Part shown: piece by piece, positions 3,041-35,167 of the stretch
Layout: every line of letters begins with the position of its first letter
How positions within the stretch are numbered: position 1 is the stretch's first letter
Origin: an uncultured Paracoccaceae bacterium
GTDB taxonomy: Bacteria; Pseudomonadota; Alphaproteobacteria; Rhodobacterales; Rhodobacteraceae
DNA length: 64,000 nt
Direction of reading: 5' to 3'
Assembly (NCBI GenBank): GCA_943787785.1
Contig: CALSNT010000008.1
Location: 1 to 64,000, forward strand
Notes under the pieces: model-generated
What the model was told of the DNA's origin: nothing
Databases searched by the model: none
The model's input: the letters and a program-made list of their open reading frames with translations, nothing else
Made by a program: the position numbers and the translations under genes

Positions 3041-3559
3041 GTGGATAGAGCCCAGAAAGAGAAAGTGGTCGAAGAACTCGGCCAGATCTTTGAAAGCTCT
3101 GGCGTTGTAGTGGTTGCCCACTACGCGGGTCTGACAGTTGCCGAAATGCAGGATCTGCGCGCGCGCATGCGTGAAGCGGGTGGATCTGTGCGTGTTGCCA
3201 AAAACAAGCTCGCCAAGATCGCCCTTGAAGGTAAACCGGTTGCGTCTATTGCCGACTACCTGACGGGCATGACCGTTCTCGCCTATTCCGAAGATCCTGT
3301 GGCTGCGGCCAAGGTTGCGGATGGGTTCGCCAAGGACAACTCGAAGTTCGAGATCCTGGGCGGCGCCATGGGCGAGAATGCGTTGGACGTCGCCGGTGTG
3401 AAAGCCGTTGCCGGGATGCCAAGCCGCGAGGAGCTTATCGCTTCCATCGTGGGTTGCATCGGGGCACCAGCCGCAAACATCGCCGGGGCCATTGGCGCGC
3501 CTGCAAGCAACATTGCCAGCATTCTCTCGACGATCGAGGAGCGCGCCGAAGCGGCGTGA
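3041..3559 (+). CDS. rplJ: 50S ribosomal protein L10
   Basis: This 172-residue protein is the L7/L12 stalk base, which binds 23S rRNA through its N-terminal globular part and holds L12 dimers on its C-terminal helix. The sequence shows the L10 signature [20 protein letters not shown], a conserved [10 protein letters not shown] rRNA-contact segment and an Ala/Glu-rich C-terminal tail. The start is GTG at 3041 with GGAG seven bases upstream, and no ATG fits better. It is co-transcribed with rplL (70-base gap). The length is standard for Rhodobacterales. Confidence 0.97.
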
Positions 3560-3629
3560 GGCAATTGGAAAATTCGCGTGGGGTCAATGACTTCATCGTT
3601 GGAACACATCTAGGAACGGAAACGAAACA

Positions 3630-4010
3630 ATGGCTGATCTGAAAAAACTGGCTGAAAGCATCGTGGGTCTGACCCTGCTGGAAGCCCAGGAGCTGAAAAC
3701 CATCCTGAAAGACGAGTACGGCATCGAGCCCGCCGCTGGCGGCGCTGTGATGATGGCTGGTCCTGCTGGCGGCGACGCCGGTGGTGCCGCTGAAGAGCAG
3801 ACCGAATTTGACGTGATCCTGAAGGCCGCTGGCGCTCAGAAAATCAACGTCATCAAAGAGGTCCGCGCGATCACCGGTCTTGGCCTGAAAGAAGCCAAGG
3901 ACCTGGTCGAAGCCGGCGGCAAAGCCGTCAAAGAAGGCGTCGACAAAGCCGAAGCCGAAGACATCAAGGGCAAGCTGGAAGCAGCTGGCGCCGAGGTGGA
4001 ACTCAAGTAA
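3630..4010 (+). CDS. rplL: 50S ribosomal protein L7/L12
   Basis: This 126-residue stalk protein recruits and stimulates the translational GTPases. The N-terminal dimerisation domain (1-33), Ala/Gly-rich flexible hinge (about 36-57) and C-terminal factor-binding domain (60-126, with [23 protein letters not shown]) are all present. A strong hairpin terminator follows directly, so in this genome rplJL is a closed unit and rpoB must have its own promoter, unlike the classic rplJL-rpoBC read-through arrangement. Confidence 0.98.
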
Positions 4011-4033
4011 TCACCGGGGTTATCCTCGGATGG

Positions 4034-4067
4034 AAAGGCCGGGCAGCGATGCCTGGCCTTTTTTTTT
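4034..4067 (+). terminator. Rho-independent terminator after rplL
   Basis: A 12-base-pair stem (4034-4045 with 4050-4061, one G-T pair) with loop GCGA is followed by a run of nine T. It ends the rplJL transcript 24 bases after the rplL stop. Confidence 0.92.
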
Positions 4068-4173
4068 GATTCAGAATGTCCAGTCTACGGACAATGCGGA
4101 CGTTGGCGACACCGGATCAAATGGCCGGTCGAGGCGCGCCAGCAACTTCTGGTCGCGTTTCACCGGTCTTCGT

Positions 4174-5187
4174 TCAAGGCGAGGTCCGTACCCGGATACG
4201 TTCGCCATGATCGTCAAACATCAGCGCGTCCTCGTCGTCGAAATCCAATACGACTGGAGAGCCGAGTGTAAATTCTTGCTGTCCGACGAGCCGCGCAACC
4301 AGTGTTGTGTCCTGTCCGATATCCGCAATCAGGTGCGTATCACTGCCGAGCCGTTCAAAATGAACGACCGTGCCGTTCAATCGGCCAGATGTGGCCAATC
4401 GCAAATGCTGCGGCCGAAGCCCGACCAACGTTGCATTCGAAATAGATAGAACATCGGGCTTAATAAAATTCATCGCCGGAGTGCCGAGGAAACCGGCCAC
4501 AAACCGGTTGACCGGGTCGTTATAAAGCTCCAGCGAAGGTCCCACCTGTTCGATCCTACCCTCGCGCATCACGACGATCTTGTCGGCCAGCGTCATCGCT
4601 TCGGTTTGATCATGGGTGACATAGATAATGCTGGTTCCGAGCGTCCGATGAATGTTCGCGATCTCGACGCGAGTGTTCATCCTGAGCGCAGCGTCCAGAT
4701 TGGACAGCGGCTCGTCAAAAAGGAAAATCTTTGGTTTCCGGACCAGGGCTCGGCCAAGAGCCACCCTTTGGCGCTGGCCCCCCGACAATTCGGACGGTTT
4801 TCGATCGCCATATTGCTCCAACGACAACATCTTGAAGACCTCGTCGATGCGGGCATCGATCTCATCCTTGGAGATGTCTTCCAGACGTAGCGAGAAGGCC
4901 AGATTGTCTGTCACCGTCATGTGCGGATAGAGCGCATAACTTTGAAAGACCATCGCCACCTCGCGGCTGGCAGGTGGCATGTCGTTTACGACGACCCCAT
5001 CCATCTCAATGGTGCCGGCATCTATCCGTTCGAGGCCGGCAATGACCCGCAGCATCGTCGTCTTTCCGCAACCCGACGGCCCTACTATGACGACGAATTC
5101 CCCCCCCGGGACCGTCATGCTGACGTCACGCAAGACGTGATTGGCTCCAAAATACTTATCAATCCCGGTCAAACGCAGGTCGGTCAT
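4174..5187 (-). CDS. ABC transporter ATP-binding protein, MalK/UgpC type
   Basis: This 337-residue ATPase would power a carbohydrate or glycerol-phosphate-type ABC importer on the inner face of the membrane. It has Walker A GPSGCGKTT (36-44), a Q-loop glutamine (82), signature LSGGQ (134-138), Walker B IFLFDEP (154-160), the switch histidine (192) and a C-terminal TOBE-like regulatory domain (about 240-337, with VGLRPQHLRL). I start it at ATG 5187; a 28-residue in-frame upstream extension lacks family similarity. No permease or binding protein is nearby. It lies inverted between rplL and rpoB, so it is an orphan that must serve permeases encoded elsewhere. Its substrate cannot be told from sequence. 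Confidence 0.88.
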   Translation of the reverse strand: MTDLRLTGIDKYFGANHVLRDVSMTVPGGEFVVIVGPSGCGKTTMLRVIAGLERIDAGTIEMDGVVVNDMPPASREVAMVFQSYALYPHMTVTDNLAFSLRLEDISKDEIDARIDEVFKMLSLEQYGDRKPSELSGGQRQRVALGRALVRKPKIFLFDEPLSNLDAALRMNTRVEIANIHRTLGTSIIYVTHDQTEAMTLADKIVVMREGRIEQVGPSLELYNDPVNRFVAGFLGTPAMNFIKPDVLSISNATLVGLRPQHLRLATSGRLNGTVVHFERLGSDTHLIADIGQDTTLVARLVGQQEFTLGSPVVLDFDDEDALMFDDHGERIRVRTSP

Positions 5188-5480
5188 GGCGACGTGTGCC
5201 AGTGCGCATCGTGCCCAAGTGGACCGAACGCGCGGTCTGCATCCTGTTTTACGGCGATTTGTGTCGCGCAACTATTGCCGCAGAGCTGCCTTCGGCCTGG
5301 GTGGATTCACATCGACAACATTCAGTAAGGGTGGTCGTCTCGGTACTGTCTGTCAAGACTGACGCACAGCTGAAATTGGTGCTCGTATGCTACTGAGTGC
5401 GCATCGGCTCCTGGCGGTCTTTGGTCTTGGACTTCGTTCTTCGGGACATCATTCTCGGGCCGAACGCCGGGTTCAACGCC

Positions 5481-5509
5481 TTGAAACCTGTCCCTATCGC
5501 GGTTACATA
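5481..5509 (+). promoter_or_regulatory. candidate promoter for rpoBC
   Basis: TTGAAA (5481-5486), a 17-base spacer and TACATA (5504-5509). The -35 is good and the -10 is weak. It is the best match in the region where a promoter must exist. An AT-rich stretch around 5541-5560 is an alternative. Confidence 0.35.
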
Positions 5510-5570
5510 CGCCCTCGTGATTCGGCGCGCAGGCAACTTGGCAATATAAACACTGGCAAAAACTACTCTC

Positions 5571-5600
5571 TCAAAGCGGGATGCGTCCCGCTTTGACAGG
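5571..5600 (+). terminator. hairpin in rpoB leader, possible attenuator
   Basis: A perfect 11-base-pair stem, 5571-5581 with 5586-5596 around loop TGCG, is followed by CAGGG and then a T-rich stretch. It lies about 130 bases upstream of rpoB. The stem is as strong as the true terminators in this window, but the T-tract is delayed, so partial termination (attenuation) or simple mRNA structure are both possible. Confidence 0.5.
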
Positions 5601-5729
5601 GTTGTTTTCTGTTTCGGGAGGGGCGTTCGGGCGACGCCTCAGGCATTGAAACGGGATGATCCAAATCTGGTCCGACAGCGGTTCGCCCCAGCCGCTTCGG
5701 TCCGTGATTGAAACGGAGTTATGTCCCCT

Positions 5730-8700
5730 ATGGCATCGACCTTCCTCGGCCAGAAACGCATCCGCAAATATTATGGCAAAATCCGCGAAGTGCTGGAAAT
5801 GCCGAACCTTATCGAGGTTCAGAAATCCAGCTATGACCTGTTCCTGAACTCGGGCGACCAGCCCGCGCCGATGGACGGCGAAGGCATAAACGGCGTCTTC
5901 CAGTCGGTCTTTCCTATCAAGGACTTCAACGAGACCGCCATTCTGGAGTTCGTGAAATACGAGCTTGAGCATCCGAAATACGATGTTGAGGAATGCCAGC
6001 AGCGCGACATGACCTATAGCGCACCGCTGAAAGTCACCCTGCGGCTGATCGTGTTCGATATCGACGAAGATACCGGTGCGAAGTCTGTCAAGGACATCAA
6101 GGAACAGGACGTCTTCATGGGTGACATGCCCCTGATGACCCCGAATGGCACGTTCATCGTGAACGGGACCGAGCGCGTAATCGTGTCTCAGATGCACCGC
6201 TCACCGGGTGTGTTCTTCGACCACGACAAGGGCAAGACGCATTCCTCGGGCAAGTTGCTGTTCGCTTGCCGGATCATTCCCTATCGCGGATCTTGGCTGG
6301 ACTTTGAGTTCGACGCCAAGGATCTGGTCTTTGCGCGCATCGACCGTCGCCGGAAACTGCCTGTTACCACGTTGCTGTATGCGCTGGGGCTGGATCAGGA
6401 AGGCATCATGGATGCCTATTACAATACGGTTTCCTTTAAGCTGAAGAAGAACAAGGGCTGGGTCACACCGTTCTTCCCGGAACGTGTGCGGGGCACCCGT
6501 CCGGTCGCCGATCTGGTGGCCGCCAAGTCCGGCAAAGTGATTGCCGAGGCGGGCAAGAAGGTCACGCCGCGCGCGGTCAAGAAACTGATCGACGAAGGCA
6601 AGGTCACCGACCTGCTGGTTCCTTTCGACCAGATCATCGGGCGCTACGCTGCCAAGGACATCATCAACGAAGATACCGGTGCGATCTATGTCGAAGCCGG
6701 TGATGAGTTGACCTGGGAGCTGGACAAGGACGAAACCGTCATTGGTGGCACCCTGAAAGAGCTGATGGATGCCGGTGTCACCGACATCCCTGTGCTTGAC
6801 ATCGATAATGTCACGGTTGGCCCCTATATGCGCAACACTTTGGCGGCCGACAAGAATATGGGCCGCGAAACCGCGCTGATGGACATCTACCGTGTTATGC
6901 GCCCGGGCGAGCCGCCCACCGTTGATGCGGCCTCGGCGCTGTTCGACACGCTATTCTTTGACAGTGAGCGTTATGATCTGTCCGCCGTTGGTCGGGTCAA
7001 GATGAACATGCGTCTGGATCTGGACGCTGAGGATACTCAGCGCACACTTCGCAAAGAAGACATCGTCGCTTGCATCAAAGCGCTGGTCGACCTGCGCGAC
7101 GGGCGTGGCGACATCGACGACATTGACCACCTTGGCAACCGCCGGGTGCGCTCGGTCGGTGAGCTGATGGAAAACCAGTACCGCGTTGGTCTGCTTCGGA
7201 TGGAGCGTGCGATCAAGGAACGCATGTCATCGGTCGAGATTGACACGGTGATGCCGCAGGACCTGATCAACGCCAAGCCGGCGGCAGCCGCTGTGCGTGA
7301 ATTCTTCGGCTCCAGCCAACTGTCCCAGTTCATGGACCAGACCAACCCGCTGTCGGAAGTCACTCACAAGCGCCGCCTGTCGGCCCTTGGACCGGGCGGT
7401 CTGACACGTGAGCGGGCCGGTTTTGAGGTCCGCGACGTACACCCGACCCACTATGGCCGTATGTGTCCGATTGAGACGCCGGAAGGCCCGAACATCGGCC
7501 TGATTAACTCGCTGGCGACCTTCGCGCGCGTGAACAAATACGGCTTCATTGAAACCCCGTACCGGATCGTCAAAGAAGGTCAGGTCACGGACGAAGTCCA
7601 CTACATGTCCGCGACCGAAGAAATGCGCCACACCGTGGCGCAGGCGAACGCGAACCTTGATGGCAAGGGCAAGTTCGTCAACGATCTGGTCTCGACCCGG
7701 AAGTCGGGCGAGTACACGCTGCAGCCGAACGAGAATGTCGATCTGATCGACGTCTCGCCGAAACAGCTGGTCTCGGTCGCGGCATCGCTGATCCCGTTCC
7801 TTGAGAACGACGACGCGAACCGGGCGCTCATGGGCTCGAACATGCAACGTCAGGCGGTTCCGCTGTTGCAGGCCGAGGCTCCGTTTGTGGGCACCGGGAT
7901 CGAGGAAGTCGTGGCACGGGATTCCGGCGCTGCGATCACCGCGAAACGGGCAGGGGTCATCGACCAGGTCGACGCGCAGCGCATCGTTGTGCGCGCGACG
8001 GCTGATCTGGAACCCGGCGATCCGGGCGTCGATATCTACTCGCTTCGCAAGTTCCAGCGTTCCAATCAGAACACCTGCATCAACCAGCGCCCGCTGGTGA
8101 AAGTTGGCGACACGGTTTCCAAGGCCGAGGTCATCGCCGATGGCCCCTCGACCGATCTGGGTGAACTGGCGCTGGGCAAGAACGTGGTCGTCGCCTTCAT
8201 GCCGTGGAATGGCTACAACTATGAGGACTCGATCCTGATTTCCGAGCGGATCACCCGCGACGACGTCTTCACCTCGATCCACATTGATGAGTTTGAAGTC
8301 GCCGCCCGCGACACCAAGCTTGGCCCGGAAGAAATCACGCGCGACATCCCGAATGTAGGCGAAGAGGCCCTGCGCAATCTGGATGAGGCCGGGATCGTCT
8401 ATATCGGTGCGGAAGTTGGCCCGGCGGATATTCTGGTCGGCAAGATCACCCCCAAGGGCGAAAGCCCGATGACGCCGGAGGAGAAACTGCTCCGCGCCAT
8501 CTTTGGCGAGAAAGCGAGCGATGTGCGCGACACGTCGCTGCGTCTGCCGCCGGGTGATTTCGGTACGGTCGTCGAAGTGCGCGTCTTTAACCGCCACGGG
8601 GTGGAAAAAGACGAACGCGCGCTTCAGATCGAACGTGAAGAGGTTGAGCGTCTGGCCCGTGACCGGGACGATGAGCTTGGCATTCTTGAGCGCAACATCT

Positions 8701-31895: not shown

Positions 31896-32505
31896 TGCGA
31901 TCAAACTCGATGGCAAAAAGGCCGGATCGGTTGATCTGGATGACGCCATCTTCGGGCTGGAGCCGCGTGCCGACATCCTGCACCGCGTGGTCCGCTGGCA
32001 GCGCAACAAGGCGCAGGCCGGCACCCACAAGGTCAAGACCCGGTCCGAGGTGAAGTACTCGACCAAGAAGATCTATCGCCAGAAAGGCACCGGCGGCGCA
32101 CGCCACGGCGCGCGTTCGGCGCCGATCTTCCGCGGTGGTGGTATCTACAAGGGTCCCGTCGTTCGCAGCCACGGTCACGAGCTGACAAAGAAGTTCCGTG
32201 CGTTGGGCCTGAAACACGCCCTGTCCTCGAAGGCCGCCGACGGCAGCCTCGTGGTGCTGGACAATATCGAGATGAAGGACGCCAAGACCGGTTCGCTGGC
32301 CAAGGCGGTCAAAGATCTCGGCTGGAAGCGCGTGCTGGTCATCGACGGCGCCGATGTGAACGAGAACTTTGCGAAGGCGGCGGCGAACATCGACGGCGTG
32401 GACGTCCTGCCCTCGATGGGCGCGAACGTCTACGACATCCTGAAGCGCGACACTCTGGTCATCACCAAAGCCGGTGTCGAAGCATTGGAGGCACGCCTGA
32501 AATGA
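31885..32505 (+). CDS. rplD: 50S ribosomal protein L4
   Basis: This 206-residue protein binds 23S rRNA and lines the exit tunnel. The extended loop [13 protein letters not shown]...[25 protein letters not shown] (about 45-85) is the tunnel loop. I start at ATG 31885 ([18 protein letters not shown]) after AAGGAGAC. An in-frame ATG at 31846 would overlap L3 by 50 bases and has no family support. rplW overlaps its stop by four bases. Confidence 0.97.
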
Positions 32506-32798
32506 GCGTTGAAGCCAAGCACTACGATGTGATCCGAAAACCGATCATCACCGAAAAAGCGACCATGGCCTCTGAGGCGAATGCAGTTGTTTTCGAAGTG
32601 GCAATTGACGCGGCCAAACCGCAGATCAAAGAGGCGATTGAAGGCCTGTTTGGTGTGAAGGTGAAGGCTGTGAATACCTCGATCACCAAGGGCAAAACCA
32701 AGCGGTTCCGGGGCAAACCCGGTAAGCGCAAGGACGTCAAGAAGGCCTATGTGACCCTGGAAGAGGGTAACACGATCGACGTGACGACTGGGTTGTAA
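32502..32798 (+). CDS. rplW: 50S ribosomal protein L23
   Basis: This 98-residue protein sits at the tunnel exit and docks trigger factor and [17 protein letters not shown] at the N-terminus and the exposed loop [15 protein letters not shown] (about 65-80) are typical. The start overlaps rplD (ATGA). Unlike the standard S10 order, the transcript appears to end here: a REP unit and a strong terminator follow, and rplB is 1.5 kb away. Confidence 0.97.
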
Positions 32799-32800
32799 CC

Positions 32801-32825
32801 GGGTGCCGGGGTGAACCCGGCACCT
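32801..32825. repeat. single REP-like palindrome after rplW
   Basis: GGGTGCCGGGGTGAACCCGGCACCT, a variant unit with GTGAACC at its centre, lies between the rplW stop and the terminator. Confidence 0.65.
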
Positions 32826-32842
32826 CGGCAAAACTTGATCTG

Positions 32843-32877
32843 AAAGCCCCGCCCGATCCGGCGGGGCTTTTTCTTTG
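32843..32877 (+). terminator. Rho-independent terminator after rplW
   Basis: A perfect 11-base-pair stem (32843-32853 with 32860-32870, loop CGATCC) is followed by TTTTTCTTT. It breaks the S10 operon between rplW and rplB. Confidence 0.93.
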
Positions 32878-32983
32878 TCAGATTACCGCAACCCGATACT
32901 TGATCGGTTTTGCAATCCCCATCAGTCTGTTTCATGTCGGCAGCCTTCTGTTTGCCGGTCAACGGCAACGGATGGGGCAAAGC

Positions 32984-34030
32984 ATGGGTGCATCGGTTAA
33001 CGCAATTTTCGGGGGCGCTTTCCTGCTGCTCGCGCTGTTTCTGACGTTCCTGATGTATTACCTCTGGGGGTTTCCCTTCAATAAGAAGGAAAACCGGAGC
33101 GCCGCGCCAAGATCGCTGATGAACCTGCACCGGGTTTTCGGCTGGGTGTTCGTGGCGATCTACATTGTGCTGATGTGGGATATGGTGCCACGCCTCTGGT
33201 CCTATCAGATCGAGTTGCCAGCCCGCACCGTGATCCACCTTACGTTGGGCATAGCGGTCGGGGCGATCCTGATAATAAAGATCATGGTTGTGCGGTTCTT
33301 CAAGCACATGGAATCGACGTTGGCACCACTTCTGGGAACGTCACTCCTGATCTGCACCTTATTGTTGACCGGACTGGCACTTCCCTATGCTGCACGCGAG
33401 GCGTATCTGCGCGCGACGGCGCAGGACGGCGAGAATTTCGCGCAGGACCGCATCGACCGGGTGACTAGGTTTCTGCCGATGATCGGATTCGAGGATGAGG
33501 CGGGGCTGGAGCAACTCGCATCCAGTGAAGGACTTGCGGCGGGTCGTACTGTGCTGACCCGCAGTTGCACCCAATGCCATGACCTGCGGACGATATTGGT
33601 GAAGCCGCGCGAACCTGCGGACTGGCACAACACGGTCGTCCGAATGGCCAACCGCGCGACCGCGTTAAACCCGATCAGCGAAAGCGACCAATGGCATGTC
33701 ACAGCCTATCTCATCGCAATCTCGCCCACGTTGCGCGAAAGCGTCAGTGAGCGCCGCCGAACTGATCAGACGACCGAGGACGCCCGAACGGCGGCTCGCC
33801 AGCCCGACATCGGGCAGCCAGAGAGCTACGATACCGAACAGGCGATGGCGGTATTCGAGGCGAAATGCTCGCAATGCCACTCTCCCCAACTGGTTCTGGG
33901 GACGACGCTGACCAGCCGCGACGATGCTGTGGCACTGGTGAAACGCATGGTTGGCAACGGGCTGACGGCGGCGGAGGAGGAGTTGAGCCAGATCATGGCT
34001 TATCTGACGGAGACATATGTGGAGGGGTAA
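32984..34030 (+). CDS. membrane cytochrome: four-helix b-type-like domain fused to a diheme cytochrome c
   Basis: I do not recognise a named family. Four hydrophobic helices (about residues 5-28, 51-72, 84-105 and 113-135) carry histidines 49, 85 and 108 that could ligate b-type heme. The soluble C-terminal half has two heme c sites, CTQCH (195-199) and CSQCH (295-299). Each is followed 21-25 residues later by an Arg-Met (M221, M322), a probable sixth ligand. This suggests quinol or intramembrane electron transfer to a periplasmic acceptor. The start is uncertain: ATG 32984 has GGGG upstream; ATG 32972 and TTG 32900 (which adds a further hydrophobic segment) are alternatives. It sits alone inside the S10 gene cluster. 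Confidence 0.72.
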   Translation: MGASVNAIFGGAFLLLALFLTFLMYYLWGFPFNKKENRSAAPRSLMNLHRVFGWVFVAIYIVLMWDMVPRLWSYQIELPARTVIHLTLGIAVGAILIIKIMVVRFFKHMESTLAPLLGTSLLICTLLLTGLALPYAAREAYLRATAQDGENFAQDRIDRVTRFLPMIGFEDEAGLEQLASSEGLAAGRTVLTRSCTQCHDLRTILVKPREPADWHNTVVRMANRATALNPISESDQWHVTAYLIAISPTLRESVSERRRTDQTTEDARTAARQPDIGQPESYDTEQAMAVFEAKCSQCHSPQLVLGTTLTSRDDAVALVKRMVGNGLTAAEEELSQIMAYLTETYVEG

Positions 34031-34035
34031 GTGGG

Positions 34036-34099
34036 TGCCGGGCTGAAGCCCGGCCTACGCGGCTCGCGGTTTTCTGTAGGCCGGGCTTCAGCCCGGCAT
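34036..34099. repeat. REP-like palindrome pair after the cytochrome gene
   Basis: Unit 34036-34059 (TGCCGGGCTGAAGCCCGGCC then TACG) and its inverted copy 34075-34099 (TGTAGGCCGGGCTTCAGCCC then GGCAT) form the cleanest pair in the window, five bases after the gene's stop. The two units could fold into one long hairpin. Confidence 0.85.
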
Positions 34100-34140
34100 T
34101 TCGGCTCATCGTACTTCGTCGTGCATCAGTACGCTCCCCC

Positions 34141-34169
34141 TTGCCACCCTCCCAACCCTTCGCTAAACA
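34141..34169 (+). promoter_or_regulatory. candidate promoter for the rplB segment
   Basis: TTGCCA (34141-34146), a 17-base spacer and TAAACA (34164-34169). It stands 156 bases before rplB, just after the REP pair. The leader in between holds a GGCCCA/TGGGCC hairpin (34271-34289) and may be structured. It explains how rplB-rplP can be transcribed after the break. Confidence 0.5.
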
Positions 34170-34324
34170 CCCCCATCTTCACCACCTCGGATTCGTCCGG
34201 GGTGGCTTACTTTTGGGGATACCCAAGCCGGGGACCTTCGGGGCCCTATACACCTGCGGTCGCTGCGTGCGGCCCAAACATAGTGGGCCTCAAGGTCCGC
34301 AAAGCAAACGGAAGACAGTTAAAC

Positions 34325-35167
34325 ATGGCACTCAAGTCGTACAAACCGACGACGCCGGGCCAGCGTGGGCTGGTTCTGATCGACCGTTCGGAGCTTTGGA
34401 AAGGCCGCCCGGTCAAATCCCTTACCGAGGGTTTGACCAAGAATGGCGGACGGAACAACACCGGACGGATCACGATGCGTCGCAAAGGTGGGGGTGCCAA
34501 GCGCCTTTACCGTATCGTCGATTTCAAACGCACCAAGCACGATATGGCTGCGACGGTTGAGAGGATCGAGTACGATCCCAACCGCACCGCATTCATCGCG
34601 CTGATCCGTTACGAAGACGGCACCCAGAACTACATCCTCGCGCCCCAGCGGATTACGGTCGGTGACCAGGTGATCTCGGGTCAGAAGGTCGACATCAAGC
34701 CCGGCAACGCGATGCCGTTCCAGGGCATGCCGATCGGCACTATCATCCACAACATCGAGTTGAAGCCGGGCAAGGGCGGGCAGATTGCGCGTTCCGCCGG
34801 AACCTACGCTCAGTTCGTGGGTCGTGACGGTGGCTATGCGCAGATCCGGTTGAGCTCGGGAGAGCTTCGTTTGGTTCGCCAGGAATGCATGGCAACGGTT
34901 GGTGCGGTGTCGAACCCGGATAACTCGAACCAGAACTTCGGCAAGGCAGGCCGCAACCGGCACAAGGGCATTCGCCCAAGTGTTCGCGGTGTTGTCATGA
35001 ACCCGGTCGATCACCCGCACGGTGGTGGCGAAGGGCGGACATCGGGTGGTCGCCACCCTGTCAGCCCCTGGGGCAAGCCGACCAAGGGTGCGCGCACCCG
35101 CAACAAGAACAAGGCGTCGTCGAAGCTGATCCTGCGTTCGCGTCACGCCAAGAAGAAGGGCCGTTAA
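34325..35167 (+). CDS. rplB: 50S ribosomal protein L2
   Basis: This 280-residue protein is needed for subunit association and peptidyl-transferase activity. The rRNA-binding folds and the C-terminal [27 protein letters not shown] segment (about 222-248, including the key histidine) are present. Start ATG 34325 ([15 protein letters not shown]); the open frame reaches back to 34031 but that part is REP repeat and leader. It begins the second S10 segment. Confidence 0.98.

Follow-up and report, generated by a model that had tools for sequence, protein, structure and literature searches.

The gene at positions 32984 to 34030 of the window (the whole stretch of 64,000 nucleotides that was analysed) encodes a membrane-anchored cytochrome, which we propose to be an inner-membrane relay from a DUF6529-like domain via two periplasmic class I c haems to a soluble cytochrome c. 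The probability of this reading is put at about one half. Here, electrons would enter the four-helix DUF6529-like domain either within the bilayer or from the cytoplasmic side, donated by a quinol or by a small cytoplasmic carrier of the iron-sulphur or flavin type. From there, they would reach the pair of class I c haems, which the membrane domain would hold in the periplasm. These could in turn reduce soluble cytochrome c, with peroxidases or oxidases among its clients. The gene, its domains, their conservation and the relatives are read from the sequences; the donor and the way in which the electrons flow are inferred. The initial annotation of this DNA had suggested a one-protein quinol-to-periplasm electron-transfer module. 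The one-protein membrane module is supported, its diheme c domain being probably periplasmic, and quinol is a possible donor.

The gene and its surroundings comprise the following features:

32502–32798, + strand: rplW, upstream neighbour
32842–32871, + strand: terminator-like hairpin 3' of rplW (hairpin scan)
32984–34030, + strand: cytochrome gene, membrane-anchored diheme c-type, 348 amino acids (open reading frame, relatives, dN/dS)
32996–33070, + strand: membrane helix 1, residues 5–29, N terminus probably outside (hydropathy, low-confidence helix assignment, family alignment)
33110–33202, + strand: membrane helix 2, residues 43–73, with invariant H49 (33128–33130), G53, Y60 and M67 (33182–33184) on one helical face (hydropathy, model, family alignment)
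33221–33304, + strand: membrane helix 3, residues 80–107, with invariant H85 (33236–33238) and K99
33320–33421, + strand: membrane helix 4, residues 113–146, running into the haem domains (hydropathy, model, family alignment)
33566–33580, + strand: haem-c site 1, CTQCH, residues 195–199 (motif); probable sixth ligand M221 (33644–33646), in W-x(6)-M
33866–33880, + strand: haem-c site 2, CSQCH, residues 295–299 (motif); probable sixth ligand M322 (33947–33949)
34037–34097, no strand assigned: inverted REP-like palindrome pair 3' of the cytochrome gene (palindrome search)
34325–35167, + strand: rplB, downstream neighbour

The longest in-frame open reading frame starts from a TTG at 32900. The ATG at 32984 is favoured as the start because all five aligned Rhodobacteraceae proteins begin with MGAS, and from here the frame runs to its stop at 34030, giving a product of 348 residues. 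Between this gene and its nearest relative, which is 86% identical and present in the only other genome of the same genus searched (G001), dN/dS is 0.10. Therefore, 32984–34030 is no chance reading frame but an intact gene under purifying selection.

As annotated initially, the gene stands alone between rplW, which ends at 32798, and rplB, which starts at 34325. The terminator placed in front of it is present as the hairpin at 32842–32871, yet such hairpins occur about as often as in shuffled sequence (two in the 1.7 kb scanned vs. 1.3 expected), which makes it statistically weak. The REP pair behind the gene was recovered with its two members at 34037–34054 and 34080–34097, the palindrome having 10 matches on both strands of the window at up to two mismatches where 0.01 are expected. 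This REP-like palindrome, GCCGGGCTGAAGCCCGGC, is dispersed in the window (9877, 30586, 34037/34080, 50902/50945), and at two places it forms an inverted pair or near pair with a spacing of 43 bases.

The hydropathy profile displays four hydrophobic stretches with peak windows at residues 5–23, 51–69, 88–106 and 116–134, in agreement with the four membrane helices described earlier. A profile of this membrane domain found it in at least 19 of 294 Planctomycetota genomes (E ≤ 1e-7), and an earlier full-length profile in at least 7 of 149 (E ≤ 1e-8); for the Pseudomonadota, the membrane-domain profile matched at least 1 of 239 genomes at E ≤ 1e-6, which is the genome of the window itself. Among the 19 planctomycete proteins, three carry three CxxCH motifs, 11 carry two and five carry none. 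The latter are L029, L030, L057, L066 and L062, of which L062 lies at a contig end and L030 and L057 contain an identical degenerate remnant of the haem domain. The identity of the membrane domain to that of the window protein is 23–29% in the Planctomycetota and 54% in L003, a contig of 6.6 kb that binning assigns to the Planctomycetota and whose protein is 46% identical.

In the alignment of 23 membrane domains (A7, which omits L057 as a duplicate of L030), the residues H49, G53, Y60, M67, H85, K99, L113 and G118 are invariant. Four of these 23 proteins lack a CxxCH motif and still have the same invariant membrane residues, therefore the membrane domain has a role of its own. On helix 2, the residues H49, G53, Y60 and M67 fall inside 40 degrees, and on helix 3, G89 and K99 lie within 40 degrees on either side of H85.

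For DUF6529 (PF20139), the window protein scores 15.8 bits (E 0.012) at full length and 19.1 bits (E 0.0011) with the domain alone, which is below the gathering score of 23.3 bits. This cut-off is passed by at least L029 (24.5 bits), L025 (25.6 bits) and L059 (23.7 bits) and not by L063 and L068, and a match at E ≤ 1 is present in 19 of 23 family members, the best being 4.4e-8. The membrane domain of the window protein has all residues that are invariant in the relatives passing the cut-off.

Regarding the topology, the loop between helices 1 and 2 contains five K+R against one D+E, while loops 2–3 and 3–4 each hold two against one and are non-discriminating. The charge suggests that loop 1–2 is cytoplasmic, in which case both the N terminus and the haem domains would lie on the outer side. 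Together with the arrangement in L003, this makes a periplasmic location of the diheme c domain probable. The structure models are poor, with a mean pLDDT of 59 and of 64, the latter for the membrane domain alone, and their quality is insufficient for haem placement.

In L003, helix 1 appears to have moved between two neighbouring genes, the cytochrome (3300–4370) and a Rieske-TPP gene (4375–6585). The cytochrome carries an N-terminal rubredoxin (PF00301, 4e-9; 32 against a cut-off of 90 for the NCBIfam rubredoxin model) in place of helix 1, and the Rieske-TPP enzyme encoded next to it starts with the helix-1 sequence, scoring 37.5 bits with a profile of 22 sequences. This score was reached by none of 2000 shuffles (best 9.9), and the next non-family reading frame gave 5.0. 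Since helix 1 is lost and the c domains would lie outside, the N terminus of the L003 protein and its rubredoxin would be cytoplasmic; a helix 1 starting outside would likewise leave the Rieske-TPP part in the cytoplasm. The exchange thus predicts both topology and docking side and lends support to the proposed topology. Furthermore, it is the strongest hint that, in L003 at least, the electrons could be supplied by iron-sulphur or flavin proteins of the cytoplasm. The arrangement may also be an assembly or binning fault of a short contig.

A rubredoxin-type protein or reductase is fused to the cytochrome or encoded within 2.4 kb at 12 of the 19 planctomycete loci. An NADH:rubredoxin-reductase-like gene on the same strand, with its match starting within 2.4 kb upstream, is present at nine loci, a rubredoxin-like/FMN (Glu_synthase) gene at two, its stop codon overlapping the start of the cytochrome by a single base, and a fused rubredoxin at one. 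Superoxide reductase, di-haem cytochrome c peroxidase and rubrerythrin are each found at 10 of the 19 loci and at least one monohaem cytochrome c at 13, and these counts are non-independent, since most of the loci with partner genes look closely related to each other. Of the partner genes searched for, L025 and L026 contain just the rubredoxin-like/FMN one (L025 7081–8421; L026 7330–8670, −), in which a rubredoxin-like domain is fused to an FMN glutamate-synthase-like one and which overlaps the start of a three-haem cytochrome. L068 and L003 have no separate gene of this set, and on the short stretches (L030 3.3 kb, L003 6.6 kb, L062 7.0 kb) absences say little. The reference proteins were identified by Pfam as reductase (PF07992 and PF18267), peroxidase (PF03150) and superoxide reductase (PF01880), and PF01645 together with the rubredoxin-like PF21349 identified the L026 FMN protein, while rubrerythrin, phosphofructokinase, SDR, cysteine dioxygenase and glutamate dehydrogenase were named by eye.

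For one anammox genome, superoxide reductase (Nlr) and NADH:rubredoxin reductase are listed as HBSAPP01_09840 and HBSAPP01_09890 (PMC10156729). The neighbouring locus numbers are in keeping with the planctomycete cluster. Judged by their gene content, the planctomycete carriers may be anammox bacteria. A limited literature set contained no publication on the combination of rubredoxin, transmembrane c-type cytochrome and neelaredoxin in Kuenenia.

The initial annotation had named candidate haem-b histidines. The membrane region of the window protein contains histidines at positions 49, 85 and 108, and in the 23-row alignment H49 and H85 are invariant but H108 is not. The invariance of these two and the weak b561 matches given below are suggestive of haem b. 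On the other hand, H49 and H85 lie near opposite membrane ends, and none of the histidines in helix 4 is conserved across the 23 domains. From the geometry of the hairpin, M67 is expected at about the depth of H85, near the outer side, and H49 near the inner side. Binding of haem b at H49 and H85, at opposite membrane faces, is plausible; that a symmetric dimer, or H85 together with M67, makes the haem sites is speculation.

Weak matches to the b561 family (PF01292) occur in 17 of the 23 membrane domains, with 5e-5 as the best value and scores under the cut-off throughout, among the matches listed. They would fit a superoxide-oxidase-like domain of the CybB type, which would transfer electrons from superoxide to cytochrome c and a peroxidase. 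The superoxide reductase and cytochrome c peroxidase genes, each at 10 of the planctomycete loci, would be in line with this, as would an alignment with CybB that is non-significant and places H85 on CybB H45. However, the unrelated model DUF998 reaches 1.3e-5 in 2 of the 23 domains and is thus better than the best b561 match, therefore such values arise among membrane proteins. An hhalign comparison with three E. coli b561 proteins (CybB, YodB and YceJ) gave a probability of 1.4% and an E-value of 0.037, which is similar to the control with an unrelated chemoreceptor (E 0.059). In hhalign with single-sequence controls, too, homology to b561 was non-significant. In addition, seven histidines are common to CybB, YodB and YceJ (H13, H45, H87, H137, H151, H158 and H159), against which helix 4 of the family offers no conserved one. 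In PMC11869295, His151 is located beside a modelled quinone. Overall, a superoxide-oxidizing function is very improbable.

The two CxxCH domains with likely methionine ligands, noted at the outset, were found as the conserved pairs 195/221 and 295/322. Both sites display the class I c-type pattern of CxxCH with a downstream methionine as predicted ligand, and the motifs make haem c attachment and methionine ligation probable. Pfam PF13442 (Cytochrome_CBB3) recognizes haem 2 barely above its cut-off (27.5 vs. 27), and haem 1 is under every Pfam cut-off. Within the 24 proteins, 19 of which contain CxxCH sites and five none, W-x(5–9)-M follows 32 of 41 sites. Six of the remaining nine have a methionine without the tryptophan, namely haem 2 in L003 and in each of the five proteins from Rhodobacteraceae, and three have a tyrosine, namely the middle haem of the three-haem proteins.

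Among the NCBIfam models, SorB (NF052246) is the top match for the window protein and for six of the seven relatives scanned, the seventh being without c haem. For the window protein, it covers two stretches (1.2e-10) with 41.3 bits against an equivalog cut-off of 93. This likeness would fit a membrane part that serves as an anchor only, with the diheme domain being fed by a periplasmic dehydrogenase as SorB is from SorA. We consider this unlikely. The neighbours of the gene are rplW and rplB and not sorA, no sulfite dehydrogenase gene was recognized by eye adjoining the copies read, and the genome has a single Oxidored_molyb match (E ≤ 0.001), which lies on another contig. Membership in SorB was rejected on the score, which is below half of the cut-off, and on the ribosomal neighbours. 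Moreover, the membrane domain is better conserved than the whole protein (mean column identity 81% vs. 74% for the same six sequences), and even proteins that lack CxxCH show no change at its key residues, which argues against a mere anchor.

A tentative yet serious alternative is a quinol:cytochrome c oxidoreductase without haem b, in which a helix anchor would provide a quinol pocket by the first c haem, in the manner of NapC/CymA or ImcH. ImcH, as described in PMC6295460, has the same order of helices followed by CxxCH motifs, and the position of H49 and H85 near opposite membrane faces with no other conserved membrane histidine would suit a protein without haem b. The haem region of L025 shows a weak match to NapC/NirT (PF03264, E 0.0012), with 19.1 bits against a cut-off of 24.1. 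Nevertheless, matches of the NapC/NirT type stay below the cut-off and may reflect the CxxCH motifs alone, and the window protein reaches NrfH at E 0.12 only. The invariant residues H49, Y60 and M67 together with H85 and K99 exceed the needs of an anchor, and for the Planctomycetota, the rubredoxin-type partner at 12 of the 19 loci points to a donor in the cytoplasm.

The relay through the DUF6529-like domain is preferred here. A more far-reaching form of it, rather doubtful as a whole, would be a conduit from cytoplasmic rubredoxin-type or flavin donors to the periplasmic c haems that bypasses the quinone pool. Within this conduit, b haems on both membrane sides would be held by H49 and H85 of two chains, or by H85 and M67 of one. 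In anammox bacteria, it would supply electrons to the cytochromes c and the cytochrome c peroxidase encoded nearby, whereas Rhodobacteraceae would have acquired it without its donor.

The Rhodobacteraceae form of the cytochrome is rare. Counting the genome of the window itself, full-length relatives are present in 3 of 61 relatives (E ≤ 0.001) and in 4 of 394 genomes of the family (E ≤ 1e-20), and in the class sample (1 of 385) and the phylum sample (1 of 398) only the own genome was detected at E ≤ 1e-12. A further full-length relative (75%) was identified in L002, an uncultured Rhodobacteraceae bacterium. L004, the weak second matches of G1117 and the matches of G1119 concern the haem part only and were omitted from the family counts. 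Plasmids contained no match to the whole protein at E 1e-5 and one Nocardia match (E 7) to the membrane part, and none of 46 pattern matches on viral contigs was confirmed.

By eye, the gene stands alone at three other places in G016, G255 and L002, and the Rhodobacteraceae copies are solitary, without recognized partner genes. A rubredoxin match was obtained in 6 of 49 genomes. One of the six is the planctomycete G1117, and G255 is the sole one among the five carriers from Rhodobacteraceae. Rubredoxin as a general partner in Rhodobacteraceae is thus unsupported, with none found in four of five carrier genomes. Since the copies are solitary and rubredoxin was not found in these four, the planctomycete donors are not simply transferable. 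The patchy presence at unrelated sites fits either acquisition by transfer or a history of repeated losses and relocations.

The location within the S10 operon is explained by a recurrent insertion site and means little. Among 20 genomes searched with rplB, the gap between rplW and rplB is longer than 1 kb in eight and 27–380 bases in 10, and in the other two rplW was not found upstream of rplB within the roughly 10 and 7.3 kb read. Seven long gaps were measured at about 1.1 to 5.5 kb; the eighth belongs to G001, which alone of the 20 holds the cytochrome gene at this junction, while G016, G255 and G1118 carry it elsewhere. The loci on which this is based include the window (32798–34325), L072, L080, L090, L092–L095, L097 and L098. 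By eye, the inserts are mostly other, unrelated genes, which we take to be prephenate-dehydrogenase-like, flavin-oxidoreductase-like and an ArsR plus SRPBCC-like set. Given this unrelated cargo and the long gaps in 8 of 20 genomes, the junction is a permissive, recurrent insertion site. The cytochrome gene would have been inserted there and would not owe its place to working with the ribosome. A functional link to the S10 operon was rejected on the varied inserts and on relatives of the gene lying elsewhere.

The initial annotation had raised the question of whether relatives keep the gene at this junction; among the carriers, the position is common only to the one genome of the same genus. 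In that genome (L010, 13618–17070), two transposase-like gene pairs were seen by eye among the ribosomal-protein genes downstream of rplB. For an insertion between rplW and rplB, the limited literature set yielded only unrelated-looking publications.

The architecture as a whole had not been recognized initially, and a homology search for the same domain order had been proposed. This search returned no family in Pfam, NCBIfam or the PDB sequences; what changes the earlier picture is the broader Planctomycetota family with the same membrane domain and two to three haems. The whole protein gave nothing below E 0.1 among the PDB sequences, and profile searches of solved structures gave nothing below E 0.5. 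A hit to 6nyr (E 6e-4, single-sequence search) was discarded, since it covers 34 residues only and is absent from the profile searches. A fold search with the poor model produced 64 matches at E ≤ 10 and none at E ≤ 0.001. No publication on DUF6529 or on any member of the cytochrome family was found in the limited literature set.

The wider family with its rubredoxin-type and peroxidase neighbours is of more interest than the operon position. It gives a lead to the function of a membrane domain whose role is not known, and possibly links cytoplasmic rubredoxin-type carriers to periplasmic cytochromes. If true, this would bear on oxygen handling in anammox and other planctomycetes.

Compared with known systems, the Planctomycetota proteins (L025–L030, L057–L068 and L003) are the ones that share the membrane domain with invariant H49 and H85, although, unlike the window gene, many of theirs lie in rubredoxin- or peroxidase-linked clusters. 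DUF6529, a domain of unknown function, spans helices 1–4 as in the window protein, which differs from it in adding two c haems and in scoring under the cut-off. SorB, the cytochrome subunit of sulfite dehydrogenase, shows haem-c similarity across both haem domains, in contrast to which the window protein has two tandem haem domains, is membrane anchored and has ribosomal genes as neighbours. CybB and the b561 family (PF01292) resemble the cytochrome family in an H-x3-G at a helix start and in weak family-level matches, yet the E. coli proteins have seven conserved histidines where the membrane domain described here has two. Finally, the Geobacter inner-membrane multihaem cytochromes CbcL and ImcH, likened to it here by their published descriptions, also combine helices and c haems in one chain. 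CbcL has nine c haems followed by six helices with a diheme b domain (PMC9129911), and ImcH has three helices followed by seven CxxCH motifs (PMC6295460). According to these descriptions, the window protein would follow the helices-first order of ImcH, with two c haems instead of seven motifs in ImcH or nine c haems in CbcL.
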